Shown one piece after another: positions 22,541 to 39,198 of a stretch of DNA of 64,000 bases (positions are counted from its first letter, which is position 1; every line of letters starts with the position of its first letter). Below the pieces are notes generated by a model. The model was given only the letters and a program-made list of their open reading frames with translations, ran no database searches and was not told the DNA's origin. The stretch is taken from positions 62,001 to 126,000 of the forward strand of contig JAQGNY010000040.1 in NCBI GenBank assembly GCA_028293825.1. Reading direction: 5' to 3'. The DNA is from Verrucomicrobiaceae bacterium (GTDB lineage Bacteria; Pseudomonadota; Gammaproteobacteria; Pseudomonadales; CAMLJR01). Position numbers and translations under genes: made by a program.

Positions 22541-23941
22541 TCAAAAAGGCGCACTTTTCGGCACGCGCGGGAACGGAATTACATCGCGAATATTTTCCAT
22601 GCCGGTGACGTAATTCAATAAGCGCTCGAAGCCGAGACCGAAGCCCGCATGCGGCACCGTGCCGTAACGGCGCAGATCGCGATACCACCATAAATCGCCG
22701 ACGATATTCATTTCCTGCATGCGCGCATCAAGCCGGTCGAGCCGTTCCTCGCGCTGACTGCCGCCAATGATTTCACCGATGCCGGGCGCGAGCACATCCA
22801 TCGCCGCCACGGTTTTGCCGTCGTCGTTCTGGCGCATGTAAAACGCTTTGATGTCTTTCGGATAATTCATCACGATCAACGGCGCCTTCACATGCTCTTC
22901 GCATAAATAGCGCTCGTGTTCGGATTGCAAATCCAATCCCCACTGCACTGGAAATTGAAACGACTTGCCGCAATTCTGCAAAACGTGCACCGCTTCGCTG
23001 TAATCCATACGTTCGAAATTGCGCGCCGCCACATGTTGCAAACGCTCGATCGCCTGCTTGTCGATGAACTCGGCAAAAAACTCCAAATCCGCGCTGCATT
23101 GTTCGAGCAACACGCGACACACATGTTTGAGAAAATCCTCGGCCAGCGCGGCGTCGTCGTTCAAATCGGCGAACGCGATTTCTGGCTCGACCATCCAGAA
23201 CTCAGCGAGGTGACGGCTGGTATTGGAGTTTTCCGCGCGAAAGGTCGGACCGAAGGTGTACACCTTCGACATCGCCAAACAAAACGCCTCGACATTGAGT
23301 TGGCCCGACACCGTCAGATAACTTTGCGCGCCGAAAAAATCCTGCGCGAAATCGATGGCGCCGTTTTCCGCACGCGGCAAGTTAGCGAGATCGAGCGTGC
23401 TGACGCGAAATAATTCGCCGGCGCCTTCGCAATCGCTGGCGGTAATCAGCGGCGTATTAATCCACTGAAAACCCTGCGCGAAAAAATAATTGTGAATCGC
23501 ATTAGCCAGCACGGTGCGCACACGCGTGATCGCGCCGAAGGTGTTGGTGCGCGGACGCAGATGCGCGACGCTGCGCAAATATTCGAAGGTGTGGCGTTTT
23601 TTCGAGATTGGATAGCTTTCCGGCTCATCAACCCAGCCCACGACCTCAACCGCGTCGGCCTGAATTTCCAGCGCCTGACCTTTGCCTTCGGACACGGTCA
23701 ACACGCCGCTGATAATCACCGCGCAGCCGCTCGATAATTGCAGCACGTCTTTTTCATAATTGGCGAGCGTCGCCGGCACCACGGCTTGAATGTTGGCCAG
23801 ACAACTGCCGTCGTTGACGGCGACAAACGAAATTCCCGCTTTGGAATCGCGGCGCGAGCGCACCCAGCCGCGCACGCTGATCCGCTGCCCGAGCTCATCG
23901 CTCGCCGCGAGCGCAGAGCGCACATCCATCACATTTGCCAT
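22541..23941 (-). CDS. asnS: Asparaginyl-tRNA synthetase
   Basis: Class IIb aminoacyl-tRNA synthetase charging tRNA-Asn, 466 aa. An N-terminal OB-fold anticodon-binding domain ([26 protein letters not shown]) is followed by the class II core with motif 2 ([21 protein letters not shown]) and motif 3 ([15 protein letters not shown]). The length and the C-terminus ([12 protein letters not shown]) match AsnRS rather than AspRS. GGAG lies nine bases before the ATG. Confidence 0.97.
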
Positions 23942-25353: not shown

Positions 25354-26619
25354 ATGTCGCAACGCCCCGATCGCATCGATATCACCGATCTGCACAACCC
25401 CGTATTAACGCCGACGCAAGAGCAGGTGTTGGCTTTCATGAGCGCCAATCCGGTGAGCTTTTCCGAAGAGGGCATTCTCGGCGCGGCGCGCGAGCAGACC
25501 GGGCTTTCCGATTTCGGCGCCGACGACTTTCGCGAGCGCCTCAATGTTTGGATTCAGTCGATAGAAGAAGACGTCGATGCCTCTGCGGTAACGCGCTTCA
25601 ATCTCTATCAGATGTGTGTGCGCTACGCGGTCACGCGGTTGCGGCTGGAAGACCTGATTCGCCGCCATCCCGAAATTCTCGATATCAAAATCGACCGGCC
25701 GATTATCGTCGCCGGTCTGCCGCGCTCCGGCACCACGCATCTGCTCAATCTGGTCAGTGCCGATACCCGGCTGCGCTCGCTGCCGTGGTGGGAAGCCATC
25801 GCGCCGGTGCCCGCGCCCGAAGATGAAGTCGATGCCGCTGGCGTCGATCCGCGCTGGACGCGCGCGCAGGAAGGCTGGCAACAGCAGGACGCGGCGTTGC
25901 CGTACATGAAAGCGATGCACGAGTTTTCGCCCGACCACATCAGCGAGGACATCGAGCTGCAGGCGATCGACTTCTCGTCCTATCTGCTCGAATGGCTGGC
26001 CTACGTGCCGCGCTGGCGCGACTACTACCTGTCGCACGATCAAACCGGCACTTACGCCTATCTGAAACGCGCATTGCAGGCGGTGACCTTTCTGAAAGGC
26101 CCGAACCGCTGGGTGTTGAAATGCCCGCAGCACATGGAGCAGCTGCCGATTCTGTACAAAACCTTCCCGGATGCGACCTTCGTCATCAGCCACCGCGATC
26201 CGGTGGCGTCGATCCAATCGGCCATCACGATGTCCTGTTACGCCGCGCGCATTCTGCGCAAGGACGTGAATACCGCGCAGTTCGCTTCGTACTGGTCCGA
26301 CCGTTACGAACGCCTGCTGCGCCGCTGCGTGCGCGATCGCGATTGCCTGCCTGCGGCGCAGACGATGGACGTGTATTTCAACGAATTGATGACCGACTCC
26401 GACGCGGTACTGAAAGCAATTTATCGCCGCGCCGACTTGCCGCTGACGCCGGAGGCGCTGGCCGAATTGCACGCCTTTATCGACGCGCATCCACGTGGCA
26501 AACACGGTCAGGTGCACTACGATCTGCGCCGCGATTTCGACCTCGCCCCCGAGCAGATTCGCGAGCGCTTCCAGTTTTATTTCGAGCGCTTTCCCTCCGT
26601 CACCGTCGAAGTGCGTTAG
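25354..26619 (+). CDS. PAPS-dependent sulfotransferase-family protein
   Basis: A 421-aa member of the sulfotransferase family that includes stf-type bacterial enzymes. The 5'-phosphosulfate loop GLPRSGTTHLLNL is at residues 121-133, and the 3'-phosphate-binding segment FVISHRDPVASIQSA lies downstream. Start chosen at 25354 with GGAG eight bases upstream. Expected reaction: sulfonate transfer from PAPS to a hydroxyl of a small lipid, steroid or glycan; the acceptor is unknown. It heads the metabolic cluster and lies 27 bases before the DUF1214 gene. Confidence 0.85.
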   Translation: MSQRPDRIDITDLHNPVLTPTQEQVLAFMSANPVSFSEEGILGAAREQTGLSDFGADDFRERLNVWIQSIEEDVDASAVTRFNLYQMCVRYAVTRLRLEDLIRRHPEILDIKIDRPIIVAGLPRSGTTHLLNLVSADTRLRSLPWWEAIAPVPAPEDEVDAAGVDPRWTRAQEGWQQQDAALPYMKAMHEFSPDHISEDIELQAIDFSSYLLEWLAYVPRWRDYYLSHDQTGTYAYLKRALQAVTFLKGPNRWVLKCPQHMEQLPILYKTFPDATFVISHRDPVASIQSAITMSCYAARILRKDVNTAQFASYWSDRYERLLRRCVRDRDCLPAAQTMDVYFNELMTDSDAVLKAIYRRADLPLTPEALAELHAFIDAHPRGKHGQVHYDLRRDFDLAPEQIRERFQFYFERFPSVTVEVR

Positions 26620-26646
26620 CCAACCATTTTTGAGAGGACCCGCAGC

Positions 26647-27798
26647 ATGAGTCACTGGAGCAGCTACACCGAGCAATTGCGCGAAGCCGGCGAGCGCGTG
26701 CTGGCGCAATTGCCATCGAAGGACCCGCAACTGGTCGCCGAAACCGAACAAATGCTGTTCGCTACATTGAGCCGAATTTTCGTCGCCGTGTCGGCGTCCG
26801 ATCCCGCGCACCCGGCGTTCGTGCCGGAGCTGTCGCTGGCATTCAACCTGCTCGCGCCAAACGCCGACACCATCTACATGACCTCGTATATCGAAGACAG
26901 CGGCGTCTATCGCCTGCGCGGCACGCGCGGCCAAATTCCGATCTTCAACATGACCCAGATCAGCGGCATCGGCCCGATCAAGGGCGATTACGATTTCGAC
27001 GACATTAAGCTCGATGCCGATGGCCGCTTTGAGTTGATCGTCAGCGCCGAGCGCCCAAGCGACCACGCCGGCAACTGGTGGCAATTGCAGTCGGGCACCA
27101 AAGGCCTGATGGTGCGACGCATGGGTTACAACTGGGGCCAAGAGATCGAACCCGAACTGACAATCGACCGTCTCGACGTATTTCCCGCGCGTCCGCGCCC
27201 GACTGCGGAAGAACTGCACGCCAAATTCAGCACCTTCGCTAAGCTCACCGAAGCATTCACGCTGGCATTCTTGAATCACGTCGACGGGCTGGAGAACGAA
27301 GGCTTCGTCAACAAGCTGAAGTTCATCGACTACGGCGAAGCAGTCGGTCTGACCGGACAGTTCTATTACGAGGGCGTATTTGATATCGCCGAGGACGAGG
27401 CGCTAATTCTGGAAGTAGTGCCGCCCAAAGACGCGCGTTATTGGTCGGTGATTTTGGCCGACGATATATTCGCCACCGTCGATTGGATCAATCGGCAGAG
27501 CAGCTTGAACGGCGCGCAAGCGGTCGCCGACGCCGACGGCGTTTACCGTTTGGTGGTCTCGCGTCGCGAGCCCGGCGTGCCGAACTGGCTTGATGCCACC
27601 GGCTACAAACACGGTGCGATTCAAGGTCGCTTCACGCGCTTCCCGGCGCCGAGCCCGACGTTGCCGACGCTGACCAAAGTTAAGCTGGCAGATGTGCGCA
27701 GCCACTTACCGGCCGCCACGCCGCAGATCAGTCGCGAGCAACGCGAACTCAGCCTGCGCGCCCGCCGCGAAGGCTGGCAACGCCGCCGCATTTGGTAG
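26647..27798 (+). CDS. DUF1214-domain protein
   Basis: A 383-aa protein with a C-terminal DUF1214 domain (YWSVILADDIFATVDWINRQSSLNG... YRLVVSRREPGVPNWLDATG). The N-terminal half carries the accompanying conserved stretch FNLLAPNADTIYM. No signal peptide is seen. The biochemical function of DUF1214 is unknown; family members often accompany sulfotransferases and catabolic enzymes. Strong ribosome-binding site (GAGAGGA) before the ATG. Its 3' end (GGCAACGCCGCCGCATTTGGTA) is the first unit of a short repeat that continues past the stop. Confidence 0.8.
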   Translation: MSHWSSYTEQLREAGERVLAQLPSKDPQLVAETEQMLFATLSRIFVAVSASDPAHPAFVPELSLAFNLLAPNADTIYMTSYIEDSGVYRLRGTRGQIPIFNMTQISGIGPIKGDYDFDDIKLDADGRFELIVSAERPSDHAGNWWQLQSGTKGLMVRRMGYNWGQEIEPELTIDRLDVFPARPRPTAEELHAKFSTFAKLTEAFTLAFLNHVDGLENEGFVNKLKFIDYGEAVGLTGQFYYEGVFDIAEDEALILEVVPPKDARYWSVILADDIFATVDWINRQSSLNGAQAVADADGVYRLVVSRREPGVPNWLDATGYKHGAIQGRFTRFPAPSPTLPTLTKVKLADVRSHLPAATPQISREQRELSLRARREGWQRRRIW

Positions 27799-27877
27799 CA
27801 AGCCTGGCAACGCCGGCGTATTTGGTAACCGCTGTATTCGATAAAAAACGCCTGTCAGCGCAGGCGTATTTGGTAAA
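27774..27877 (+). repeat. Short direct repeats after the DUF1214 gene, with a hairpin
   Basis: CTGGCAACGCC-GCATTTGGTA at the gene's end recurs 30 bases later as CTGGCAACGCC-CGTATTTGGTA. The core GGCGTATTTGGTAA appears again at 27863. Between them ACGCCTG-TCAGCG-CAGGCGT (27848-27867) forms a hairpin flanked by A and T tracts that could end the transcript. Confidence 0.7.
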
Positions 27878-28008
27878 ACCCCACTCGGTCGCGCCGGTGT
27901 ATCCAATAACAATCTGGCATCGGCGCCTCCGCGCTCAACGCATATCGTCCGACTTAACGGCTGATGGGTCGAACTGTCAAACCGCAGCAAGTCCTTTCGG
28001 AGAAAACC

Positions 28009-28782
28009 ATGCAACCAGCATCGGGATCGTCCATCAGCGGCAAGAAAATCATCATCGCCGGCGGCACCAGCGGCATGGGGCAGGCGATGGTCGAAGCCTT
28101 TCCCGCGCTGGGCGCGCAGGTCATCTTTTTCGGCCGCAGCGTCGATAAGGGCAATGCGCTGGCGCGCAGCAGCGGCGCGCGTTTTATCGAGGCCGACGTC
28201 GCCGATGAGGATTCGATAAAAAGCGCCATCGAACGCGCGGTGGCCGAACTGGGCGGTCTCGACGTGCTGATCACCGCCGCCGGCGTCGCGCCGGGCGCGG
28301 CAGCCGAGAACATCACCCTCGCCGACTGGCTCGAAGTCATGGCGATCAACGTCACCGGCACTTACCTCACCAACACCATTGCCTTTCCGCACCTGAAAGA
28401 ACACGGCGGCACCATCCTCAATTTCAGTAGCGCGGGCGGCATTCAGGGCTACGCCGGCAAGGCGCATTACGCGGCGAGCAAGGGCGCGGTGGTGGCGTGG
28501 ACACGCTCGCTGGCGAAGGAATGGGGACGCTACAACATCCGCGTCAACGCCATCGCGCCGGCCATCTGGACGCCGATGTACGACAAGACGCGCGCGTCGA
28601 TGAGCGCCGAACAACTCGATCAGCACGACCGCATGATGCTGGGCGCGGTGCCGCTCGGCGGCAAACTCGGCAATGTGACCGACGACTTCCTGCCAGTGAT
28701 GCGATTTCTGTGCAGCGACGACGCAAAATTCATGACCGGTCAGGTATTTGCTATCGACGGCGGCGTATTGATGCTGCGTTAA
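28009..28782 (+). CDS. SDR-family NAD(P)-dependent oxidoreductase
   Basis: Classical short-chain dehydrogenase/reductase of 257 aa. Nucleotide-binding GGTSGMGQ is at residues 18-25, and the catalytic Ser (FSSAGG, about 140-141), Tyr154 and Lys158 (YAASK) are all present. The C-terminus TGQVFAIDGGVLM is typical. Start at 28009 with CGGAG upstream. Substrate unknown; the setting suggests a hydroxyl/ketone step in the cluster's pathway. Confidence 0.92.
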   Translation: MQPASGSSISGKKIIIAGGTSGMGQAMVEAFPALGAQVIFFGRSVDKGNALARSSGARFIEADVADEDSIKSAIERAVAELGGLDVLITAAGVAPGAAAENITLADWLEVMAINVTGTYLTNTIAFPHLKEHGGTILNFSSAGGIQGYAGKAHYAASKGAVVAWTRSLAKEWGRYNIRVNAIAPAIWTPMYDKTRASMSAEQLDQHDRMMLGAVPLGGKLGNVTDDFLPVMRFLCSDDAKFMTGQVFAIDGGVLMLR

Positions 28783-28864
28783 CGCGGCCCGATTGGTAAA
28801 GTCGCACCCGTCCGCTTAACAACTCACCCGCTCTCTTAGTTATTTACTCTCGATGGAGAATCTC

Positions 28865-29725
28865 ATGACCAGTTCCAATACCCTGCGCGCCGGAGTTATC
28901 GGCCTCGGCCAAATCGGCGGCGGCGTCGCCATTTGTCTCGCGCGTAAACAGCGCCCACTCGCCGTCTATGACGTGCGCCCCGATGCCGCCGACAGACTCG
29001 AAGGCGTGCCGGCCGTGCTCGAATCGCCCGCTGCCGTCGCCCGCAATAGCGACGTACTGATGATTGCGGTGCTCAACGCAGAACAAGTGCTCGCTGTACT
29101 CGAAGGCCCGAACGGCGTACTGGCCGGCGCCCATCCAAACCTGAAAATCGTTGTGCTCAGCACCATCGGCATCGACGATCTGAAAGAGCTGGTTGCATTG
29201 ACCGCCAAGCACGGCGTCGAGCTGCTCGACTGCGGCGTCACCGGCGGCGGTGAAGCCGACAAGCACGGACTGGTCAGCATCCTCGGTGGCTCCGATGCCA
29301 GCGTCGCGCAAATCCTGCCAGTGCTGAATGATTTCTCGGCCGAAGTTCACCACATGGGCCCGGCCGGTGCCGGCATGGCGACCAAAATCGCCCGCAATAT
29401 GGTGCATTTCTCGGTATGGCGCGCCGGCGTTGAAGGCGCAAAACTGGCGCAGGCTGCTGGCGTCGATATCGGCAAGTTCATTGATCTGGTCGAAGCCGCG
29501 TCCACCAAACCGGGCGCGAGCGTTACTTTTTGGATGGACCCGAGCCGTATCAAAGGCCCAAGCCTGAAAGAATTCGATGCCGAAGCCGTCGCCCGTTACA
29601 CGATGATGCTGCAGCAGAAAGATTTGGAAGCGGCGAAAGAGCTGGCGGATAAACTCGGCGTCACCATTCCGGCGTCGGAAGCGGCTCGGTTGAATGCACT
29701 CGATACGTATCGTTTAAAAGATTAA
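28865..29725 (+). CDS. Beta-hydroxyacid dehydrogenase (3-hydroxyisobutyrate dehydrogenase family)
   Basis: NAD(P)-dependent dehydrogenase of 286 aa. The Rossmann motif GLGQIGGG is near residues 13-20, a substrate-binding VTGGGEAD segment replaces the usual VSGG, and the catalytic Lys174 with Asn178 lies in GMATKIARNMV. Start at 28865 with GGAG seven bases upstream. It follows the SDR gene by 82 bases and is likely co-transcribed. Exact substrate unclear. Confidence 0.88.
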   Translation: MTSSNTLRAGVIGLGQIGGGVAICLARKQRPLAVYDVRPDAADRLEGVPAVLESPAAVARNSDVLMIAVLNAEQVLAVLEGPNGVLAGAHPNLKIVVLSTIGIDDLKELVALTAKHGVELLDCGVTGGGEADKHGLVSILGGSDASVAQILPVLNDFSAEVHHMGPAGAGMATKIARNMVHFSVWRAGVEGAKLAQAAGVDIGKFIDLVEAASTKPGASVTFWMDPSRIKGPSLKEFDAEAVARYTMMLQQKDLEAAKELADKLGVTIPASEAARLNALDTYRLKD

Positions 29726-29790
29726 AGGACGCTTGTCGTCTTAAAGATTACACAGGCGTTTGAAGGATTGAAGTCTGCTTGAAGAAGTGA

Positions 29791-29813
29791 AGGCCGGACG
29801 CAACGTTCGGCCT
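29791..29813 (+). terminator. Hairpin ending the SDR/dehydrogenase transcript
   Basis: Ten-base-pair stem AGGCCGGACG/CGTTCGGCCT (one G-T pair) with a CAA loop. No T run follows. The bases before it (29723-29790) contain imprecise AAGGA/CTTG repeats of about 20 bases. Confidence 0.5.
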
Positions 29814-29951
29814 GAGCCAACCACTTCCTATCCTTTTTAGCCACTCGGAGTCGCTGGGAATAGCGCTCCAGCTGGAATGAATGCCGCTATTTGCGTGTCG
29901 CAAAGATTGAGGTGCCGGCGAATCACCGACACCACTATCTCTTGTCCTCGG

Positions 29952-31064
29952 CTAGCTTTTCATCAGTAGGTTGTAGGTATCCAGGTCTTCCGCCGCTTTA
30001 AAGAAGCGCTCGACCATCGGCAGGCCGATTTGGCCCCACTCGTCCTGATTCGACGCCCACGACTGCATGCCGTACGCCGGCCAGCGGCGATACTCTTCCC
30101 AGATTTGATCCAGCGTCAGCACGTCTTTCGCACCGGTCGCGACCAAATGCTCGCGATAGTGCTTGAGCAGCTCGCGTTCGTTTTGGCGACGCTCGTCGAC
30201 AGTCAGCGAGCCGAGCATGAAGTAGGTGACATCGCGCCACGGGCGGCCTTTGCGCACCAGCTGCCAGTCGATCCAAATACGGTTGCCGTCGGGACGCAAG
30301 TAGCTGTTGCCGAGATGCGAATCGCCGTGCACGACACCGCGCGGGCCGGTTTGCGCCTGCTCGTAGGCGATCAGTTTATTGAACAGCTGTGCGAAGCGGC
30401 TGCGGTCCTCTTTCATCCACTGCGGCGCCAGTTTGTCGTATTCGGGCTTGTTCAGATTCAGCTCGATAAAGCGCCACAGAAACTCCAGCTGGCTGATGTC
30501 GACATGCGCCACCATCGAAGTCTGAATCCAGCTATGGCGATCCAGTTCCGGGCTGCCCCACCAATTGCCGTGCAGAATCGCCAGGCCTTCCAGCCCACGC
30601 GCGACGCCGTCGACACCGATGTGCTGGGTCGAATGTCCGAACACGCCCCCGATGGACACTAAGTCTTCCATCATCACCACGCCCTGACCGCTGCCGTCAT
30701 CGTCCCAATCGGCGTAATAGGCGATCGGTGCGGGCACGCCCAGCGCATCGCGAATGTAGAAGTAGAAGCGCGCTTCCAGCGCGCAGATATCGCCACTGTC
30801 GAAACCATCGGACCAGTTCGACTTCAGGCATACCTGCTTCGGGATACCGGCTTTCTTGCCGATGTCGTTCAATTCCAGCTCGACGCGCATCTTGGTGGTA
30901 TGGCCGTTGCGCACTTCGATGACTTTCATGTCCTCGACCACGATGCCGGGGTACTTGTTGTTTAACGTGCGGGTCAGCCACGCCGCATCGACCTGATCGA
31001 GATTGCGCGGCAGTTTTTCAGTGCGGGCCGGGTACGGGCTGTTAGTGGTGCTGGAGGTTGTCAT
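29952..31064 (-). CDS. Phosphotransferase-family protein (APH/choline-kinase fold)
   Basis: A 370-aa protein kinase-like small-molecule phosphotransferase. The catalytic Brenner motif HGDSHLGN is at residues 246-253 and the metal-binding IDW at 265-267; an N-terminal Lys (VCLKSNW) and Glu (LEARFY) complete the nucleotide site. Such proteins in catabolic clusters probably phosphorylate an alcohol or act on CoA-pathway intermediates; the substrate is not known. AGAGGA lies seven bases before the ATG. Downstream partner of the flavoprotein gene, same strand. Confidence 0.85.
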   Translation of the reverse strand: MTTSSTTNSPYPARTEKLPRNLDQVDAAWLTRTLNNKYPGIVVEDMKVIEVRNGHTTKMRVELELNDIGKKAGIPKQVCLKSNWSDGFDSGDICALEARFYFYIRDALGVPAPIAYYADWDDDGSGQGVVMMEDLVSIGGVFGHSTQHIGVDGVARGLEGLAILHGNWWGSPELDRHSWIQTSMVAHVDISQLEFLWRFIELNLNKPEYDKLAPQWMKEDRSRFAQLFNKLIAYEQAQTGPRGVVHGDSHLGNSYLRPDGNRIWIDWQLVRKGRPWRDVTYFMLGSLTVDERRQNERELLKHYREHLVATGAKDVLTLDQIWEEYRRWPAYGMQSWASNQDEWGQIGLPMVERFFKAAEDLDTYNLLMKS

Positions 31065-31173
31065 GGAGCATTCCTCTTATTATGGATACCGCTACTCGTA
31101 GCGATGACAAGACCTGAAATGGGAAAAACCTGACTAAGGAGCCCGGCGACGGCAGCCGCCCCGGGCATTTGGA

Positions 31174-32748
31174 TCAGGTCGATTTTTTCAACCAGCGATC
31201 GACGCGCTCGGCGGCAATTTTGCCTGGCAGACCGGATACGCCGCCGCCCGGATGAGTGCCGGCGCCGCCGAGGAAGAAGCCCGGAACCACTGGCTTAGTA
31301 CCGCCCAGACCGAAGGCCGGACGCTTGAGACCGGTGCGCGCTGCGCCGAAATCGATATGCGTCACGCAACCGTTGGTGAGGTTGAGGCGCTCGGCGCGAT
31401 CCATCGGTGTCTCCAGGAAGTTGCCGATCTGCGCATCGAAGCCATCATAGAACTCGGACAATTGCGCGGTGATGCCTTTTAGCGTCCGCGCTTTCAGCTC
31501 GTCGCTCCAACCTTCGCGCGCCACCACCGGAATCGACGGCAGATAGACGTAAGCGATCGACTGGCCAGCCGGCGCCTGCGCGGGCTCCCAGTTGCTGAGC
31601 GGCGATACCGAAATCGCATGTGTGTTTGGAATGTCGCCGCGGCGCGCGGTAGCGAAGCTGTTGCGCACTTGCTCCGGCGTGCCGATCAGGCCGCAGGCTT
31701 TATTCAAGTCGGCGTCGTCGTGGCGCATATCTTGGTGGCGCTTCAGCGACAAAGGCTTCGACATCGCGATATTGATCAACATCGGCGCGCAGTTGGTGCG
31801 GTTCGCAGGCGAATGCTCCAAGCGCGTGACCAGACGTTTTTCAATACCGCCGGGCGTGGTGAGTTTGTAGGCAGTGTGCGGATCGCAGGTCGCGATCACG
31901 CTGTCGGCGGTGATAACGCTGCCGTCTTCCAGGCGCACACCGCGGGTTTTGCCGCCCTCGATGATGATTTCCGACACTTGCGAATTCAGACGGATGGTGC
32001 CGCCGCTGGCGGTGAAGCTGCCGGCCAGCGCGTTCGACAAGGTCTGCAATGAGCCGATCGGCTTGCCGACGCCGAGACGGTGCATCAGGCCGAACAACAT
32101 GTACGCCGCCGCGTTGCCATCGTCATCGATCGGACCGGCGCCGGCCGCGATACCTGTCAATAAACCAATCGACGCCGGATGCTCGAAGTACTCGCACGCG
32201 ATCTGGTCGGCGGTGCCGGCAGCGATGTTTTGCAGCTCGGCGCGCAGACCGCGATGGCGGATCAGAGCGCCGATCATTTTTACCAGCGCGCGCGGATTGG
32301 GGCGGCCCGGATCGGTATTCATGAACGGGAAGCCGATGTCCATCAGCGCATCGATGACTTCCATAAATTTGATGTAGGCCTTGCCGTCGTTTTTCGACAG
32401 CCGCGCCATATCTTCAGCGGTGCGCTTGGGGTCGCGGAAGAACGCGATCGAATTGCCGTCCGGATGCAGATAGGCATACGAGGGATCGGGATCGTAGGTT
32501 CTGAAGCCGTGCTTCACCAGATCCAAATCCTCGATGATGCCGGTGCCGCGCAGGAAAATAACCTCGACCGCGCAGGGTGTGACCAGATGTTGAGGCGCTT
32601 CCGGAATCATGAAACCGGAAGTCGTCATGCCGCCCACTTTGCTGCCGCGATCTACCACGGCGACGCGGCGGCCACTGCGGGAAAGGTAACAGCCCGCGGT
32701 CAGCCCGTTGTGTCCGGCGCCGACAATAACCACGTCGAAATCTGCCAT
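31174..32748 (-). CDS. Phytoene-desaturase-like NAD(P)/FAD-dependent oxidoreductase
   Basis: A 524-aa flavoprotein with the N-terminal FAD dinucleotide motif VIVGAGHNGLTAGCYL (residues 8-23), a following GG doublet (GSKVGGMTTSG), and the C-terminal block GFFLGGAGTHPGGGVSGLPG characteristic of the CrtI/PYROXD2-like group. It likely dehydrogenates or isomerises a hydrophobic substrate; a carotenoid pathway is not suggested by neighbours. AGGAG lies upstream of the ATG at 32748. Divergent from the TetR gene, hence a plausible target. Confidence 0.88.
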   Translation of the reverse strand: MADFDVVIVGAGHNGLTAGCYLSRSGRRVAVVDRGSKVGGMTTSGFMIPEAPQHLVTPCAVEVIFLRGTGIIEDLDLVKHGFRTYDPDPSYAYLHPDGNSIAFFRDPKRTAEDMARLSKNDGKAYIKFMEVIDALMDIGFPFMNTDPGRPNPRALVKMIGALIRHRGLRAELQNIAAGTADQIACEYFEHPASIGLLTGIAAGAGPIDDDGNAAAYMLFGLMHRLGVGKPIGSLQTLSNALAGSFTASGGTIRLNSQVSEIIIEGGKTRGVRLEDGSVITADSVIATCDPHTAYKLTTPGGIEKRLVTRLEHSPANRTNCAPMLINIAMSKPLSLKRHQDMRHDDADLNKACGLIGTPEQVRNSFATARRGDIPNTHAISVSPLSNWEPAQAPAGQSIAYVYLPSIPVVAREGWSDELKARTLKGITAQLSEFYDGFDAQIGNFLETPMDRAERLNLTNGCVTHIDFGAARTGLKRPAFGLGGTKPVVPGFFLGGAGTHPGGGVSGLPGKIAAERVDRWLKKST

Positions 32749-33121
32749 CGAAATGCTCCTGTGTAAGTGCAATGTGGGGTTTTGAATTACGAGAATGCGT
32801 ACGCGCAGACCGTCGCTTCGGTGTTGTTAATGGCCGTAGGCGCGGTCGCGTTGTTATTTATCGAGTCACGCGTATTAACCGCGACGCAGATGGCATACCA
32901 TGCTGGCCGGCGGCCATATTAAGTCAGCGCCTTAGATTCGGTCAACCACTATGCGGATGTGCGGCGGCGCGGCGTTTCATGCGGCATCAACTTGCTAAGC
33001 GGCGCATCGACATGGTCTGATTCGGTTGGTCGCGAGACAGACTACGCAATTGTTTATTGTTAAAAACAGACGGCGTGTTTTGCGAGCTAAACATCGGCCA
33101 TTTATCGAGCTTTGGACATTC
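32749..33121. promoter_or_regulatory. Divergent promoter region between flavoprotein and TetR genes
   Basis: About 370 bases without a gene. It should contain both promoters and, by analogy with TetR systems, the operator. The short palindrome TGGCC-GGC-GGCCA near 32909-32921 is one candidate, but no operator is certain. Confidence 0.4.
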
Positions 33122-33781
33122 ATGACAACAACAACTGGCAGCCCGCGCAAAGAGTATTCGGACGGCGCCTGGCAATTGATGGTGGCGGCGGAAAAATTAT
33201 TCGGCCATCGCGGCATCGAAAACGTGTCGCTGCGCGAAATTGCAACTGCGGCCGGGCACGCCAACAATTCAGCGGTCCAATATCACTTCGGCTCGAAAGA
33301 AAATCTGGTGCAGGCCGTATTCGAAATGCGCTTGCCGGCGCTGGACGCCGCGCGCACCAAGCGTTTGGAAATCGAACGCGCCGCTGGGCCGCTGACGTTG
33401 CGCGCGCTGTTGGCGGCGCTACTTTTGCCGGTTCTGGAGGAGTTCGACGATCAGAGCCTGGAAAATTTCGTACTGTTTATGACCCGTCTGGCGCATCGCC
33501 GCACGGCGGAACATCCGTTTTTTCTCGCCGCCGATATCGCGCCGGCGTCGGTCGAAATCGTCGATGAGATCACGCGGCTACTCAGCCATTTGCCGTTTGA
33601 GGTGTTCAGTATTCGGCTGCGGCTCGGCATCGATTTGTTTCTCGACAGCCTGGCGGAGCGCAACCGCATCCAGCAATCGGAGCAAAACCCCTATCTGGAC
33701 GAGAGCGCCTTCTGGAATGACATCTTGGATTTGGCGACTGCGGTAATGCAGACGCCGCTGACGGCGCCGCTGAAAAGCTGA
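33122..33781 (+). CDS. TetR-family transcriptional regulator
   Basis: A 219-aa repressor-type regulator. The N-terminal helix-turn-helix is clear (AAEKLFGHRGIENVSLREIATAAGHANNSAVQYHFGSKENLVQAV). The C-terminal half is the variable ligand-binding domain. Start at 33122; the longer frame from 33026 adds a basic leader without homologous pattern. It probably controls the surrounding metabolic genes, which flank it on both strands; the inducer is unknown. Confidence 0.88.
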   Translation: MTTTTGSPRKEYSDGAWQLMVAAEKLFGHRGIENVSLREIATAAGHANNSAVQYHFGSKENLVQAVFEMRLPALDAARTKRLEIERAAGPLTLRALLAALLLPVLEEFDDQSLENFVLFMTRLAHRRTAEHPFFLAADIAPASVEIVDEITRLLSHLPFEVFSIRLRLGIDLFLDSLAERNRIQQSEQNPYLDESAFWNDILDLATAVMQTPLTAPLKS

Positions 33782-33822
33782 ACCGCAGCGCGACCGTGCT
33801 GCGGCCGCGCTTAATTACTGAC

Positions 33823-34845
33823 TCAATTACCGTAGAAACAATCCGCAATACCATCGAGATAGAACGCCGCTTTTTCTGGTGTCAGGCCGAAATGTGGAAT
33901 CACCGGCGTGATCGAGTCCGCCAATTCCGCGCGCTCGCTCATGCGGCGGCGCACCTCGTCGGCCGGGCCGACCAGCGCAATCGCCTCCACCATTTCATCG
34001 CTGCACGCCGCCGACATCGCGGTGAAGTCGTTGCGGGTGAACGCGTCTTGAATGGCCTTCGCCTCTTTGCCAAACCCGATGTATTCGAAATAGCGGTGGT
34101 ACTGCTCGGACTGGCTGTAATAAGCGATGTTGGCGCGCGCATCGTTGATGGCTTCACGCTTGTCTTTATTGACCGCGACGAACACGTTCAGGTTGATGTC
34201 GATCTCGCTACGATTGCGACCGGTTTGCTTCAAGCCGGTATCGACGTTGGCAAATACCTGCTCTTTGATCCACTTGTCCGACCACAGCGGATGACCAAGC
34301 AGACCGTTGGCCAACTCGCCCGCCATTTGACAGGCTTTCTCGAACACGGCCGGCATGAAGATCGGAATTTCAGTACGCGTTGGCGGCGCCAGCGTGCGGA
34401 AGTGACGCAGATCGAGCGTGTGGTATTCGCCTTCGAGCAAACCCAGCTCGCCGGTGTGACCCTTCGCCACGATCTGGCGAATCAGGCCGATCACTTCGCG
34501 CATATGTTTGAGCGGCTTGCCGTATTCCATGCCGAACGCGTCGATCAGCATCTTCGCCGACGAGCCCAAACCCAGCACTAACCGACCGCCGCTGATGGTA
34601 TCGACATCGAGCGCCATGGTCGCGGTGTCGAGCGGACTGCGCACGAATGCCAGCGCAATGCCGGTGCCGAGCTTCAATTTGGTGCTCACCGCGGCGGCGG
34701 CGGCAAGCGGCACAAATGGCGCGCCGAAGGTCTGCGACGACCAGATGCCTTCCAGCCCGGCGGATTCGTACTTTTGCACCTGACTGACCAACTGATCCTT
34801 CGGCAGCGGTGGTAGTTGCGCCCAAATCTTGTGCTTGCTTGGCAT
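33823..34845 (-). CDS. LLM-class flavin-dependent oxidoreductase
   Basis: Bacterial-luciferase-like TIM-barrel enzyme, 340 aa, using FMNH2 or F420H2. Family features are the GIWSSQTFG N-terminal strand, TKLKLGTGIALAFVRSPLDTATMALDVDTISGGRLVLGLG (nucleotide/substrate-binding blocks), and the C-terminal GPADEVRRRM. ATG at 34845 with AGGTGA upstream. May hydroxylate, oxidise or cleave a ring or carbonyl compound; which is not decidable here. Confidence 0.88.
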   Translation of the reverse strand: MPSKHKIWAQLPPLPKDQLVSQVQKYESAGLEGIWSSQTFGAPFVPLAAAAAVSTKLKLGTGIALAFVRSPLDTATMALDVDTISGGRLVLGLGSSAKMLIDAFGMEYGKPLKHMREVIGLIRQIVAKGHTGELGLLEGEYHTLDLRHFRTLAPPTRTEIPIFMPAVFEKACQMAGELANGLLGHPLWSDKWIKEQVFANVDTGLKQTGRNRSEIDINLNVFVAVNKDKREAINDARANIAYYSQSEQYHRYFEYIGFGKEAKAIQDAFTRNDFTAMSAACSDEMVEAIALVGPADEVRRRMSERAELADSITPVIPHFGLTPEKAAFYLDGIADCFYGN

Positions 34846-35080
34846 TGTTATCACCTGTTCCGTAAAGGTTGCGCGTTTAAACCGGCGAGCTCTCGCGATG
34901 GAAGTAGTCGCTGACGCGCAGTCACGCTGAGAAGCGAAGAAGTACGCCGGTTGTTATTGTTTGGATGTACTTAGCGCCAGCCATCAGCCATGAAAAGCAG
35001 AAATTAAGGCGGCGTCTTAGAGCGGCGATGGTAGGTCAGCGCCGTTGTAGCGGTCAAGCCGCGCCTGAGCGGGGTAATAC
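34846..35080. other. Spacer between VOC and LLM genes
   Basis: About 235 bases between two minus-strand genes. I see no reading frame or clear hairpin; it is long enough to hold a separate promoter for the LLM gene. Confidence 0.4.
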
Positions 35081-35482
35081 TTAATAGGGAAAGTTGAGTT
35101 CGATCAATATTCCGTTGGGATCGCGCACGAAGATGAGCTGCATTTGCAGCTCGGGTACATGTTGCGCCGAGTATTCGACACCGCTGTCGGTCAGACGGGC
35201 AATGTAGTCCTCGCGCCCACTGCAACGCAGCGCGAAGTGATCGATCATGCCGCGCTGCGCCGCCCCGCGCACCGGCTCCGGACCGATCACCAGATTTTCG
35301 GTGCGAACTAAATGCACGATGGCGCGGTCGCCGGCATCGTGCACGTAGGCGCCGCGCGTCAGATCGGTCGTCATCGGCGGCGGCTTTACCGTCATGCCGA
35401 GCACATCGCGATAAAACACGATCGATTCGGCCAAGTGCGCGGTGCGTATATTGATATGGTCGAGCTGCAACACGGACATCAT
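35081..35482 (-). CDS. VOC-family (glyoxalase/dioxygenase) protein
   Basis: A 133-aa vicinal-oxygen-chelate protein with two beta-alpha-beta-beta-beta modules. Candidate metal ligands are His at LDHINI, His at MIDHFAL, and Glu near the C-terminus (ILIELNFPY). The fold covers glyoxalases, ring-cleavage dioxygenases, epimerases and resistance proteins. Two consecutive ATGs (35482, 35479); GAGG fits the second better. It begins six bases after the isomerase gene, so they share a transcript. Confidence 0.85.
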   Translation of the reverse strand: MMSVLQLDHINIRTAHLAESIVFYRDVLGMTVKPPPMTTDLTRGAYVHDAGDRAIVHLVRTENLVIGPEPVRGAAQRGMIDHFALRCSGREDYIARLTDSGVEYSAQHVPELQMQLIFVRDPNGILIELNFPY

Positions 35483-35488
35483 TTACCC

Positions 35489-36310
35489 TCAAGTTTGCGC
35501 GGCGGAGGCAATAACCCGGCGCGCGCCAGCTACTGCGCGCTGCACTCGCTCTTGCGCCGATACACCGGCCTGAGCCAGCGAGCGCATCGGCACCTCGACA
35601 CTCACCACCAGATCGGCACGCACTGCACGCAGAATATCGACCAGCGGCATATCGCCATCGCCCGGAATCATGCGCTCGTTCATCGCCTCATCCATATAGT
35701 TAAACGGATCGGCGATCACCGACGGCCCATCGCTGAGCTGCACGTAATCGATCAACTGCGGATCGAGCCGCGCCAGATCGGCAGCGGTATCGCCGACGCG
35801 CGTCAGGTGCATGGTATCGATCAGCAATTTGAAATTAGGCAGCGCCACTGCTTCGATCACTTCCAGCACTTCGGCCAGTGTTTTAAAGGTCAGCATCGGA
35901 CATGGCTCCATCGTCGCGGTGATGCCATAGCTGCCCGCCATCGTGACGATCTCGCCGATTTGATCGAGCGAACGGGCGCGGGCGGGATCGAATGAAATCG
36001 CATTGATCCGCTTTACGCCGAGCTCGGCCAGCACATCGAACGCCGGCCGCTGCTGTGCCGCGTCGCTGCCGGGGAATACCGCGAACCCATCCACCAGAGC
36101 AATCGACACATTGTTATCGCGCAGACTCGCCACCGTTTCACGACGCAGCCGAGCGTCGTCGATCAACGAGAAAAACGGATAGTCGTACGGATTGAAGTCG
36201 GGCCGCGACAGCACCAGGCTGATATCGCGGCATTCCGCCGCCGCCGCACAGGCGATCATTTCAAGCGGGCCGATGCCCAGTAACGTGATGTATTCAACGC
36301 CTACGCGCAT
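35489..36310 (-). CDS. Sugar-phosphate isomerase/epimerase-like TIM-barrel protein
   Basis: A 273-aa protein of the AP-endonuclease-2/xylose-isomerase-like superfamily, matching the IolE/IolI pattern: Glu in ATMEPCPML, LLIDTMHL with a metal-binding Asp/His, DYVQLSDGP, and a C-terminal VSVEVPM Glu. These are the usual divalent-metal ligands. The ATG at 36310 has AGGA upstream; the longer frame to 36391 is not supported. Could be an epimerase, isomerase or dehydratase in the cluster's pathway. Confidence 0.8.
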   Translation of the reverse strand: MRVGVEYITLLGIGPLEMIACAAAAECRDISLVLSRPDFNPYDYPFFSLIDDARLRRETVASLRDNNVSIALVDGFAVFPGSDAAQQRPAFDVLAELGVKRINAISFDPARARSLDQIGEIVTMAGSYGITATMEPCPMLTFKTLAEVLEVIEAVALPNFKLLIDTMHLTRVGDTAADLARLDPQLIDYVQLSDGPSVIADPFNYMDEAMNERMIPGDGDMPLVDILRAVRADLVVSVEVPMRSLAQAGVSAQERVQRAVAGARRVIASAAQT

Positions 36311-36544
36311 GAAGGAGGTCCTGTCGTTATCGTTAGTATCCGGGCAGCGTACGGGAGTCCGGAATGAATGACGCCGCCACCGATAATGCAATTCCCGACC
36401 GGATTGCCTTAAGCAGACATTTTCTTAAATCGGCGGCGTTGGCTGTACGATAAACAGCACTGTGCCGCCGACAAATAATGGCGCTTGGCAGCGGCGCCGC
36501 TCTCACGTTACCGTTGCGGCTCGCCTTTTTTGGAGCCACCGCAC

Positions 36545-37558
36545 GTGACCACTCTGCGCAACCGCCAAGTTCGATTGAAATCTAGGCCGCAAGGCATTCC
36601 CCAGGCCGATAATTTCAATATTGTCGAGGTGCCGGTCGAGCCGCTGGGCGCGGAGCAAATTCTGGTGCGCAATATCTATTTGTCGGTCGAGCCGGCCATG
36701 CGCGGCTGGGTCAGCGATGTCGGCAATTACTCGGAACCGGTCGCCATCGACGCGGTGATGCGCGCCATTACCGTCGGCCGCGTCGAGCAATCCAACGATC
36801 CGCGCTATCACGTCGGCGATATCGTCACCGGCATGCTGGGCTGGCAGGATTATGCGGCCGTCACCGCCGCTACAATCGAGCGCAAAGTCGGCGCCGGCTT
36901 TCCCATCTCAACCGCGCTCGGCGTGCTCGGCATCAACGGTATCACTGCCTACTTCGGCCTGCTCGAAGCGGGCCAACCGAAAGCGAGCGATACCGTGGTT
37001 GTCTCCACCGCCGCTGGCGCTGTGGGTTCCACCGTCGGCCAGATCGCGGGGATCAAAGGCGCGCGCACGGTCGGCATTACCGGCGGCGCCGACAAAGTGA
37101 AGCTGTGTACTGAGGAATTCGGCTACGCCGCTGCGGTTGACTACAAAGCCGCCGACTTTGAAGCCGCACTCGACGCCGCCTGCCCGAACGGCATTGATCT
37201 GTATTTCGATAACACCGCCGGCGCCATTAGCGACGCGGTTTACCAGCGGCTAAACGTCAACGCCCGCGTCGTCATTTGCGGCACCGCATCGGTCGCGAGC
37301 TGGAGCCCGCCGCCGCTCGGCCCGCGCGTCGAACGCATCATTCTGACCAAGCGCGTGCGCGTGCAGGGTTTTGTCGTATTCGACCTGCTCGCGCGTTACG
37401 GCGAAGCGCTGCAGCAACTCGGCAAATGGGTTAAATCGGGCGAGTTGCGCTATCGCGAAGATATTCTCGACGGCATCGAAGCCGCACCGGATGCCATCGC
37501 CGGGCTGTATCGCGGCGACAATTTCGGCAAGCGCTTGATTCGAATCGCTGCCGAATAG
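36545..37558 (+). CDS. MDR-family NADP-dependent oxidoreductase (CurA/leukotriene reductase type)
   Basis: Zinc-independent medium-chain reductase, 337 aa, from a GTG at 36545 with GGAG nine bases upstream. The N-terminal LSVEPAMRGWV and the cofactor motif AAGAVGSTVGQIAGIKGARTVGI are family signatures; FDNTAGAISDAVYQ follows. Members reduce alpha,beta-unsaturated ketones with NADPH. Divergent from the isomerase operon and followed by the DsbA-like gene 27 bases later. Confidence 0.92.
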   Translation: MTTLRNRQVRLKSRPQGIPQADNFNIVEVPVEPLGAEQILVRNIYLSVEPAMRGWVSDVGNYSEPVAIDAVMRAITVGRVEQSNDPRYHVGDIVTGMLGWQDYAAVTAATIERKVGAGFPISTALGVLGINGITAYFGLLEAGQPKASDTVVVSTAAGAVGSTVGQIAGIKGARTVGITGGADKVKLCTEEFGYAAAVDYKAADFEAALDAACPNGIDLYFDNTAGAISDAVYQRLNVNARVVICGTASVASWSPPPLGPRVERIILTKRVRVQGFVVFDLLARYGEALQQLGKWVKSGELRYREDILDGIEAAPDAIAGLYRGDNFGKRLIRIAAE

Positions 37559-37585
37559 ACGAACTTGAATTACAAGGAGCGCGCC

Positions 37586-38218
37586 ATGCCGCCGGTAAAA
37601 ATCGACTTCTACACCGACATCGCCTGCCCGTGGTGCATCATCGGCCATTACCGGCTCGACAAAGTGCTGGCGCAGTTTCCGGCGCTCGCCGTCGATATCG
37701 AACACCACCCGGTGATCCTGATGCCGGACTGTCCGCCGCAGGGTTTGCGTATCGCCGATCTGATGCGCCAGCGCTACAACATCACCGATCCGTCTGCCGC
37801 CTGGCAGCGCCCGCACGCCGAAGCGCGTGCATCGGGATTGGCGCTCGATTTAAGTCGGCAACCGCTGGCGTTTCCAACACTCGGCGCGCACACATTGATT
37901 CGATTGGCGCGTTCGCGCGGCACCCAACACGCGCTGGCTTGGGCCTTCAGCGATGCGTATTTTATGCAGACACTGAATGTCGGTGACGTCGAGGTATTGT
38001 CAGGCATCGCTGCGGATTTTGACTTCGAGCGCGAAGAAGCGCGGCGCTTAGTAAGCGATCCGGCGGAGCTCGCGGAAACTCAACGTGAAGTGGCTGCAGT
38101 GTCGGCAAAGGGAATTCGGTCGGTACCGCATTTCATCATCAACGGCGAAATACCGCTGAACGGTAGTCCCAGCGAAGACGCGTTGGCGGCGATATTTACT
38201 CAGTTGAGCGCGCGATAG
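37586..38218 (+). CDS. DsbA-family (FrnE-like) thioredoxin-fold oxidoreductase
   Basis: A 210-aa cytosolic DsbA-fold protein with active-site CPWC (Cys14, Cys17) and the cis-Pro loop in IRSVPHFIIN. No signal peptide, so it is FrnE/2-hydroxychromene-2-carboxylate-isomerase-like rather than a periplasmic DsbA. AAGGAG lies upstream of the ATG at 37586. Probably co-transcribed with the MDR reductase; role in redox or isomerisation steps unknown. Confidence 0.88.
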   Translation: MPPVKIDFYTDIACPWCIIGHYRLDKVLAQFPALAVDIEHHPVILMPDCPPQGLRIADLMRQRYNITDPSAAWQRPHAEARASGLALDLSRQPLAFPTLGAHTLIRLARSRGTQHALAWAFSDAYFMQTLNVGDVEVLSGIAADFDFEREEARRLVSDPAELAETQREVAAVSAKGIRSVPHFIINGEIPLNGSPSEDALAAIFTQLSAR

Positions 38219-39121: not shown

Positions 39122-39198
39122 TGGTGCGCTCGGCGGGATTCGAACCCACGACCCCTGCCTTCGGAGGGCAGTACTCTATCCATCTGAGCTACGGGCGC
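39122..39198 (-). tRNA. tRNA-Arg (anticodon CCG)
   Basis: 77-nt cloverleaf with encoded CCA. Anticodon loop CTCCGAA closed by CTGCC/GGCAG gives anticodon CCG; the T-loop is TTCGAAT. The acceptor stem GCGCCCG/CGAGCGC has one C-A mismatch at the fifth pair. Single-gene transcript with its own terminator. Confidence 0.97.

Follow-up and report, generated by a model that had tools for sequence, protein, structure and literature searches.

The window analysed in this work, a stretch of DNA of 64,000 nucleotides, contains between positions 25354 and 38218 a set of 12 ORFs, all of which were matched in a Pfam profile search (viz. Sulfotransfer_3, DUF1214, SDR, NAD_binding_2/11, EcKL/APH, FAD amino-oxidase/CrtI-like, TetR_N, Bac_luciferase, Glyoxalase (VOC), AP_endonuc_2 TIM barrel, ADH_N_2/ADH_zinc_N, and DSBA). 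Their order and strands agree with the preliminary description of this DNA and bear out its division into five transcription blocks, viz. sulfotransferase-DUF1214-SDR-HIBADH (+), APH-CrtO (-), TetR (+), LLM-VOC-TIM (-), and MDR-FrnE (+). The region was also described as rich in GC, and its GC content (0.598, compared with 0.533 in the rest of the window) is indeed the highest of any equal-length segment in the window. As had likewise been stated, its flanks are housekeeping genes: asnS (22541-23941) bounds it on one side and a tRNA-Arg gene (39122-39198) followed by rep (40731-42755) on the other, with both protein-coding genes scoring above their NCBIfam cut-offs. The genus has one other genome, in which 5.1 kb of other genes take the place of the 20.7 kb that extend here from asnS to an AAA-ATPase gene (44.7 kb), in agreement with the earlier view that the set is accessory. 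The ORFs examined from 22 to 43 kb include no integrase, the tRNA was the sole element matched in an Rfam search, and neither long terminal direct repeats nor convincing att-like repeats were seen in the 20 repeat families listed out of 49; within this scope, an integrative island at tRNA-Arg was not favoured. The cluster is rare and was probably acquired horizontally.

The first block begins with a PAPS-type sulfotransferase (25354..26619, + strand), which scores 132 bits against PF13469 (Sulfotransfer_3; gathering threshold 27) and carries the motifs PRSGTTHLL and HRDPVASIQS. Its PAPS-binding motifs are conserved with those of its homologue on plasmid pSA2 of Novosphingobium resinovorum, to which it is 64% identical. 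The closest PDB entries, the Sulfotransfer_3 enzymes 2z6v and 2zq5, share its fold family and PAPS motifs; the window enzyme differs from them in being paired with a DUF1214 gene and set among catabolic genes. This DUF1214 gene (26647..27798, +; PF06742, 37.6 bits vs. a gathering threshold of 25) starts 27 nt past the sulfotransferase gene, and its product is 37-46% identical to island homologues (see below) and related to PDB entry 6ans, which itself has no assigned function. All seven DUF1214 matches in a sample of 150 genomes adjoin a sulfotransferase gene, and the two genes constitute a recurrent gene pair. PAPS-synthesis genes lie in the same gene string as the pair in two relatives and are divergent from it and adjoining in a third. 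In the literature collection searched, DUF1214 is named in a single paper, on an unrelated subject.

The block continues with an SDR oxidoreductase (28009..28782, +; PF13561/PF00106), whose orthologues in two related gammaproteobacteria are 66-74% identical, and with a 3-hydroxyisobutyrate-dehydrogenase-like (HIBADH-like) NAD(P) enzyme (28853..29725, +; PF03446/PF14833), which is below all NCBIfam equivalog cut-offs and has orthologues of 57-68% identity in gammaproteobacterial relatives. The second block contains an APH/ecdysteroid-kinase-like phosphotransferase (29952..31064, -; PF02958 and PF01636), in which the catalytic HGDxHxGN and IDW motifs are intact with invariant residues, and which is 54-57% identical to proteins encoded next to CrtO-like genes on two plasmids. 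Its neighbour is a CrtO/CrtI-like FAD oxidoreductase (31174..32748, -), identified by Pfam and NCBIfam profile scores. This enzyme shares the fold and the FAD motif of CrtO ketolases and CrtI desaturases (AlphaFold model pLDDT 81.7; closest folds the carotenoid desaturases 4rep and 4dgk), but its scores are far below the cut-offs of both families, viz. 197 vs. 1000 bits for CrtO (NF045689), which is still its best NCBIfam model, and 111 vs. 238 bits for CrtI (TIGR02734), and it has no adjoining carotenoid genes. Families of APH, DUF1214, HIBADH-like, LLM, SDR, and P450 proteins recur around the 41 loci at which its orthologues were found.

The TetR-family regulator (33122..33781, +; PF00440) has an orthologue of 51-52% identity on the contig of UBA4495 that carries CrtO and LLM genes. 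A 36-nt element with -35/-10-like hexamers, a candidate shared promoter/operator, lies upstream of the CrtO-like gene (32910..32945, -), and a second copy lies upstream of the LLM gene (35022..35057, -). The two copies are identical at 27 of 36 positions, a level also reached in 6 of 200 shuffles; no copy with ≤7 mismatches was found in other loci, and none with <8 mismatches in the regions of the same genome that were compared. We regard the shared element as real, though weak. The earlier proposal that all 12 genes form one TetR-controlled cluster is not supported, as the evidence for a single regulon is weak, consisting of this one element at two promoters, and as the TIM, MDR, and FrnE genes lack close island orthologues, gene order is reshuffled between genomes, and the CrtO-like gene occurs alone in Pseudomonas.

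The luciferase-like oxidoreductase (LLM; 33823..34854, -) is predicted from its sequence to be of the F420-dependent type. Its best model is TIGR03617 (207 bits, below the cut-off of 278), and all of its matches of solved structure are either Mer or the F420-dependent hydroxymycolic acid dehydrogenase; the AlphaFold model (pLDDT 53) is too poor to judge F420 binding. Members of the TIGR03617 family and Mer are thus the best non-trivial matches of the window LLM, which differs from that family in scoring under its cut-off and in having a proteobacterial host. The host genome contains a complete F420 operon (npdG, cofE, cofD, cofC, and FbiC; G000:C11:30605-36211), and F420 genes are absent from the genome of the sister species. 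Close orthologues of the LLM are confined to genomes with F420 biosynthesis: within the order, an orthologue is present in 3 of 392 genomes and all three encode FbiC. The presence of F420 genes is by itself weak evidence, since F420 biosynthesis occurs in ~26% of the genomes of the order.

The VOC-family protein (35081..35482, -; PF00903) has homologues of 53-60% identity in three gammaproteobacteria, located elsewhere in those genomes. The last three genes are weakly linked to the set, viz. a xylose-isomerase-like TIM barrel (35489..36391, -; PF01261), with homologues of merely 33-40% identity in two sphingomonad genomes; an MDR reductase of the CurA/prostaglandin-reductase-like kind (36485..37558, +; PF16884/PF00107), which scores 383 bits against a cut-off of 440 for the CurA-type curcumin reductase model NF058644; and a FrnE/DsbA-like protein with a CPWC motif (37586..38218, +; PF01323), with homologues of 57-62% identity elsewhere in the genomes of relatives and a paralogue of 63% in its own genome. 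No close orthologue of the TIM, MDR, or FrnE genes was found in the related islands, save for one MDR homologue of 55% identity in the Croceicoccus island.

The preliminary description had raised the question of whether DUF1214, sulfotransferase, and LLM genes co-occur in other genomes. Sphingomonads, Hirschia, and three further gammaproteobacteria each combine orthologues of the sulfotransferase, DUF1214, HIBADH-like, APH, CrtO-like, and LLM genes in their genomes, where these often share a contig; the set is hence no random assortment, which supports the view of a metabolic set with a conserved core. In a survey of 21 other CrtO-bearing genomes, a sulfotransferase of 60-78% identity and a DUF1214 homologue were found in most sphingomonads and in all three related gammaproteobacteria, and most of these genomes also encode an LLM of 57-72% identity. 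In several genomes, all of these genes share one contig (e.g., G071:C8, G072:C1, G077:C18, and G070:C25), and in a member of the Porticoccaceae (L037/G063) the APH, CrtO-like, DUF1214, and sulfotransferase genes lie within ~20 kb. On plasmid pCME4A9I of Croceicoccus marinus, the sulfotransferase and LLM orthologues belong to a single gene string, beside which lies a TetR gene, and they are neighbours in three further genomes. Gene order differs between all genomes compared.

In sphingomonads, these orthologues are located in islands of ~100 kb together with F420 biosynthesis genes, P450s, Rieske oxygenases, a KstD-like flavoprotein, an HsaA-like monooxygenase, an extradiol dioxygenase, a ring-fission hydrolase, TonB receptors, a CoA ligase, and acyl-CoA dehydrogenases. 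The annotated islands of pSA2 and pCME4A9I share the sulfotransferase, DUF1214, LLM, APH, and CrtO-like orthologues with the window and also hold F420 biosynthesis, P450, Rieske oxygenase, and ring-cleavage genes; the genes are contiguous there on a megaplasmid, whereas the window's genome has them divided between several contigs, with the TIM, MDR, and FrnE genes as additions in the window part. The window's own genome contains further islands with homologues of the LLM (73%), an acyl-CoA dehydrogenase (77%), an SDR (81%), the alpha subunit of a ring-hydroxylating dioxygenase (62%), and an extradiol VOC protein and hydrolase (47-48%), with a gene order that matches Croceicoccus; these ring-cleavage genes are physically separate from the window genes. 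The oxygenase and ring-cleavage genes of the islands are absent from most control genomes of the order, the sister species included. Three observations go beyond the preliminary description: that the set is linked to F420, that its genome has other such islands, and that the sulfotransferase and DUF1214 genes form a module.

Based on these results, we consider it probable (roughly two chances in three) that the region is an accessory satellite, probably acquired horizontally, of a larger and dispersed pathway of aerobic catabolism that employs F420 and degrades a hydrophobic polycyclic alicyclic (steroid- or terpenoid-like) compound. The hydrophobic hydroxylated polycyclic substrate suggested earlier stands as the best guess, now from the context of the orthologues. 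In such a pathway, the LLM would pass hydride between F420 and a substrate ring, in either direction, and the CrtO-like flavoenzyme would desaturate a ring, while the SDR, HIBADH-like, and MDR enzymes could perform alcohol, aldehyde, and enone redox steps. The hydroxyls of the substrate may receive sulfate from PAPS through the sulfotransferase and phosphate through the APH/EcKL kinase, with the sulfated intermediate being the putative substrate of the DUF1214 partner, and the presence of substrate may cause TetR to free the CrtO-APH and LLM promoters.

Ordinary 9,10-seco steroid degradation (KstD, KshA, and HsaABCD), of which the window cluster would be a peripheral part whose novelty is merely sequence divergence, appears unlikely to us. 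The islands do hold the same kinds of enzymes (FAD dehydrogenase of KstD-like type, Rieske, HsaA-like, extradiol, and hydrolase), but these families are far under the steroid equivalog cut-offs: the KstD-like homologue of the pSA2 island, for example, scores 427 vs. 789 bits (the protein of the window's genome is 46% identical to that of Croceicoccus), the HsaA-like protein 164 vs. 450 bits, and the extradiol VOC protein has no NCBIfam match at 1e-20, including to the HsaC/TesB-type extradiol equivalog. The canonical steroid pathway was rejected as an assignment on account of these cut-offs. To our knowledge, the sulfotransferase, DUF1214, and LLM are no known steps of the 9,10-seco pathway, to which the use of F420 is likewise extra. 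A point in favour of the steroid explanation is that, in Sterolibacterium denitrificans, cofC/D/E are located beside the cholesterol side-chain genes (PMC6678751).

A similarly low likelihood attaches to the explanation that the genes form a loose collection acquired one by one at a catabolic hot spot with housekeeping genes on either side, and belong to separate pathways under separate regulation. The five separate blocks, the reshuffled order, and the position of the TIM, MDR, and FrnE genes outside the conserved core are consistent with it, as is a CrtO-like gene of 85% DNA identity that stands alone in Pseudomonas in a different neighbourhood, without sulfotransferase, LLM, or F420 genes. 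However, six to eight orthologues share genomes and islands far beyond chance, and the sulfotransferase-LLM association in Croceicoccus and three more genomes also argues against independent acquisition. That the genes build or modify a secondary metabolite, such as a sulfated carotenoid (known from Erythrobacteraceae) or terpenoid made by a CrtO-like ketolase/desaturase and the sulfotransferase, is highly improbable despite the carotenoid-related best model and folds of the CrtO-like enzyme, the sulfotransferase in the set, and the fact that many of the host taxa are pigmented sphingomonads, as carotenoid biosynthesis was rejected on scores that are too low and a context that is wrong, with no further carotenoid gene among the 12 and with catabolic genes in the islands.

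Within the preferred reading of an F420-using catabolic pathway, the sulfotransferase and DUF1214 may represent an undescribed catabolic module, in which a hydroxyl of the polycycle would be sulfonated with PAPS and DUF1214 would then process the sulfate ester, e.g., by an elimination with sulfate as the leaving group, in a pathway common to sphingomonads and a few gammaproteobacteria; we put this forward as a tentative and rather doubtful proposal. The pairing and the PAPS genes beside it in three relatives provide a handle on the DUF1214 family, and they suggest that sulfation may be a step of degradation, beyond its roles in detoxification and export. The role of F420 synthesis in Proteobacteria is listed as an open question in a 2021 review (PMC8498797), and our literature search found no link between F420 and catabolism in Novosphingobium or Sphingobium. 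The occurrence of F420 genes within conserved catabolic islands that bear an F420-type LLM, or elsewhere in the genomes that have such islands, points to a concrete and testable role for this cofactor in proteobacteria, and the module, if it is real, would assign a function to DUF1214 and would offer one reason for F420 synthesis in Proteobacteria.

Our analyses recovered from the window all twelve genes of the preliminary description, on the strands given there, in five blocks at 25354-38218: sulfotransferase (SULT)-DUF1214-SDR-3-hydroxyisobutyrate dehydrogenase (HIBADH)-like (+), ecdysteroid-kinase-like (EcKL) phosphotransferase (APH)-CrtO-like (-), TetR (+), luciferase-like oxidoreductase (LLM)-VOC-TIM barrel (-), and MDR-FrnE (+). 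The cluster had also been called GC-richer and accessory, and both statements hold: its GC content is 0.598 vs. 0.533 outside, no 12.9-kb stretch of the window being richer, and the interval from asnS to a gene at 44.7 kb, 20.7 kb long in the window, is replaced by 5.1 kb of unrelated genes in the only other genome of the genus, hence the stretch is accessory. It is flanked on the left by asnS and a gene for a transport-like membrane protein and on the right by tRNA-Arg, a small cytochrome-c-like gene and rep. Judging from rep, the other flanking genes and its relatives, the host is probably a gammaproteobacterium. The ORFs examined at 22-43 kb of the window include no integrase, and the 20 of 49 repeat families listed include no convincing end repeats. 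Three imperfect head-to-tail copies of a repeat of about 28 nt (AAGCCTGGCAACGCCGGCGTATTTGGTA) lie at 27770-27875, in the end of the DUF1214 gene and the DUF1214-SDR spacer, and are overlapped by a terminator-like hairpin. The 36-nt stretches upstream of CrtO (32910-32945) and LLM (35022-35057) are identical at 27/36 positions and both contain -35/-10-like hexamers; because 6 of 200 shuffled-spacer trials equalled this identity, a common regulatory element is only hinted at.

The CrtO-like FAD oxidoreductase (gene at 31174..32748) is closest to two Pseudomonas proteins (92-94%); next come its relatives in three further assemblies of gammaproteobacteria, at 64-70%, and in many sphingomonads, at 63-67%. 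The Pseudomonas genes (assembly L031, 695-2417; L032, 9970-11596) match window 31081-32821 at 85% DNA identity and are isolated; since the match ends near the gene ends and the neighbours are unrelated, they look like the result of single-gene transfer. The families recurring around CrtO-like loci are SDR, P450, APH, DUF1214, HIBADH-like, LLM, sulfotransferases, MFS and VOC. APH directly follows CrtO on the Novosphingobium resinovorum plasmid pSA2, as in the window (APH 54%), and lies near it on a Caulobacter plasmid (57%).

A search for the gene set in other genomes had been proposed, and 21 CrtO-bearing genomes were searched whole with SULT, DUF1214, HIBADH-like and LLM, the number of candidates per genome being capped. 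These four recur together, whereas TIM barrel and MDR fall outside the conserved core; SDR, TetR, VOC and FrnE have homologues (52-74%) at scattered positions in at least one of the three gammaproteobacteria. Most sphingomonads, as well as the gammaproteobacteria UBA4495 and BRH_c0, have orthologues of SULT (60-78%) and LLM (57-72%); none were found, at the threshold used, in the Pseudomonas and Azohydromonas genomes with CrtO alone. Porticoccaceae NAT127 carries APH, CrtO, DUF1214 and SULT (75%) on one 33-kb contig, with LLM at just 47%. In three genomes (G071, G072, G077) SULT and LLM lie at most 2 kb apart on the island contig, DUF1214 and HIBADH-like homologues being further along, and on the Croceicoccus marinus plasmid pCME4A9I SULT (64.6%) and LLM (59%) share a single gene string adjoining TetR and Rieske oxygenase genes.

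Across 150 sampled genomes of the phylum, DUF1214 directly adjoins a sulfotransferase gene in 7/7 matches (spread over four genomes, with four of the seven matches in the window's own), and six further sulfotransferases stand alone. Additional adjacent pairs occur in G077, G065 and G076; the last, a 2.6-Mb betaproteobacterial assembly (the genome of locus L070), has several, on contigs C3, C5, C9, C14 and C29. In sphingomonad islands the closest DUF1214 homologue shares the island with SULT, with variable adjacency. Three loci (L189, L190, L178) combine SULT-DUF1214 and VOC with the sulfate-activation genes CysD/CysN. G191 has the arrangement SULT-DUF1214-VOC-CysD-CysN and an APS-kinase domain; CysD and CysN are divergent and next door to the pair in G143; and a Paraburkholderia sprentiae plasmid, which has CysQ too, reads EcKL-SDR-MarR-ADH-DUF1214-SULT-VOC-CysQ-CysD-CysN. 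CysD, CysN, CysQ and APS kinase are PAPS-making and PAP-removing genes, and such loci are candidates for a self-sufficient sulfation module. The presence of these genes beside the pair in relatives makes it very probable that the sulfotransferase is a PAPS-using enzyme with DUF1214 as its partner; a role of DUF1214 in processing the sulfated product is a guess.

Several observations link LLM to coenzyme F420. Its best family model is TIGR03617 (score below cut-off), the solved structures nearest to it are those of F420-dependent Mer enzymes, and the window's own genome has a complete operon npdG-cofE-cofD-cofC-FbiC (contig C11:30.6-36.2 kb). Among the matches listed, plasmid LLM homologues come mainly from Rhodococcus, Streptomyces, haloarchaea, mycobacteria and two sphingomonads, known F420 makers or, by this analysis, carriers of F420 genes. 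A close LLM orthologue occurs in 3 of 392 genomes of the order, and FbiC, an F420 biosynthesis gene, in 3/3 of these vs. roughly 26% overall. All CrtO-bearing genomes with a close LLM orthologue have FbiC, and no F420 genes were found in the CrtO-bearing Pseudomonas, Pseudoduganella and Azohydromonas genomes. Of the 27 genomes of the order whose SULT homologue reaches E<=1e-90, 21 also have FbiC (hand count; Fisher p about 1e-8, indicative, as the genomes are related and at most two candidates per genome were scored). About a quarter of the 392 genomes carry FbiC; in group g27 two adjacent shorter matches replace the one long match, as would result from separate CofG and CofH.

The sphingomonad islands, viz. 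those of pSA2 (about 285-375 kb) and pCME4A9I (about 57-153 kb), hold genes for oxidation (P450s, two kinds of Rieske oxygenase, a KstD-like flavoprotein, an HsaA-like monooxygenase) and ring cleavage (an extradiol-type VOC and a ring-fission-type hydrolase), along with a CoA ligase, acyl-CoA dehydrogenases, TonB receptors and F420 biosynthesis genes. The three enzymes tested against steroid equivalog cut-offs (KstD-like, HsaA-like, extradiol) all fall short of them. The window's own genome carries further islands of this kind, reaching 73-81% identity, on contigs C55 (80-120 kb and 373-378 kb), C20 and C19. On C55 the order FAH-extradiol-hydrolase-SDR is that of Croceicoccus, as is RHDalpha-RHDbeta-TetR-HsaA-like, but for two extra genes there between RHDbeta and TetR. 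The main catabolic island, C55:80-120 kb (loci L123, L166), includes a LuxR-type regulator, P450s, Rieske oxygenases, an extradiol dioxygenase and an F420-type LLM (73% to that of Croceicoccus). Ten genomes of the order served as controls: six, the sister species among them, have none of the own-genome island genes, and the other four have one to three weak single matches each. The best reading of the window cluster is therefore that it forms one satellite of a dispersed pathway.
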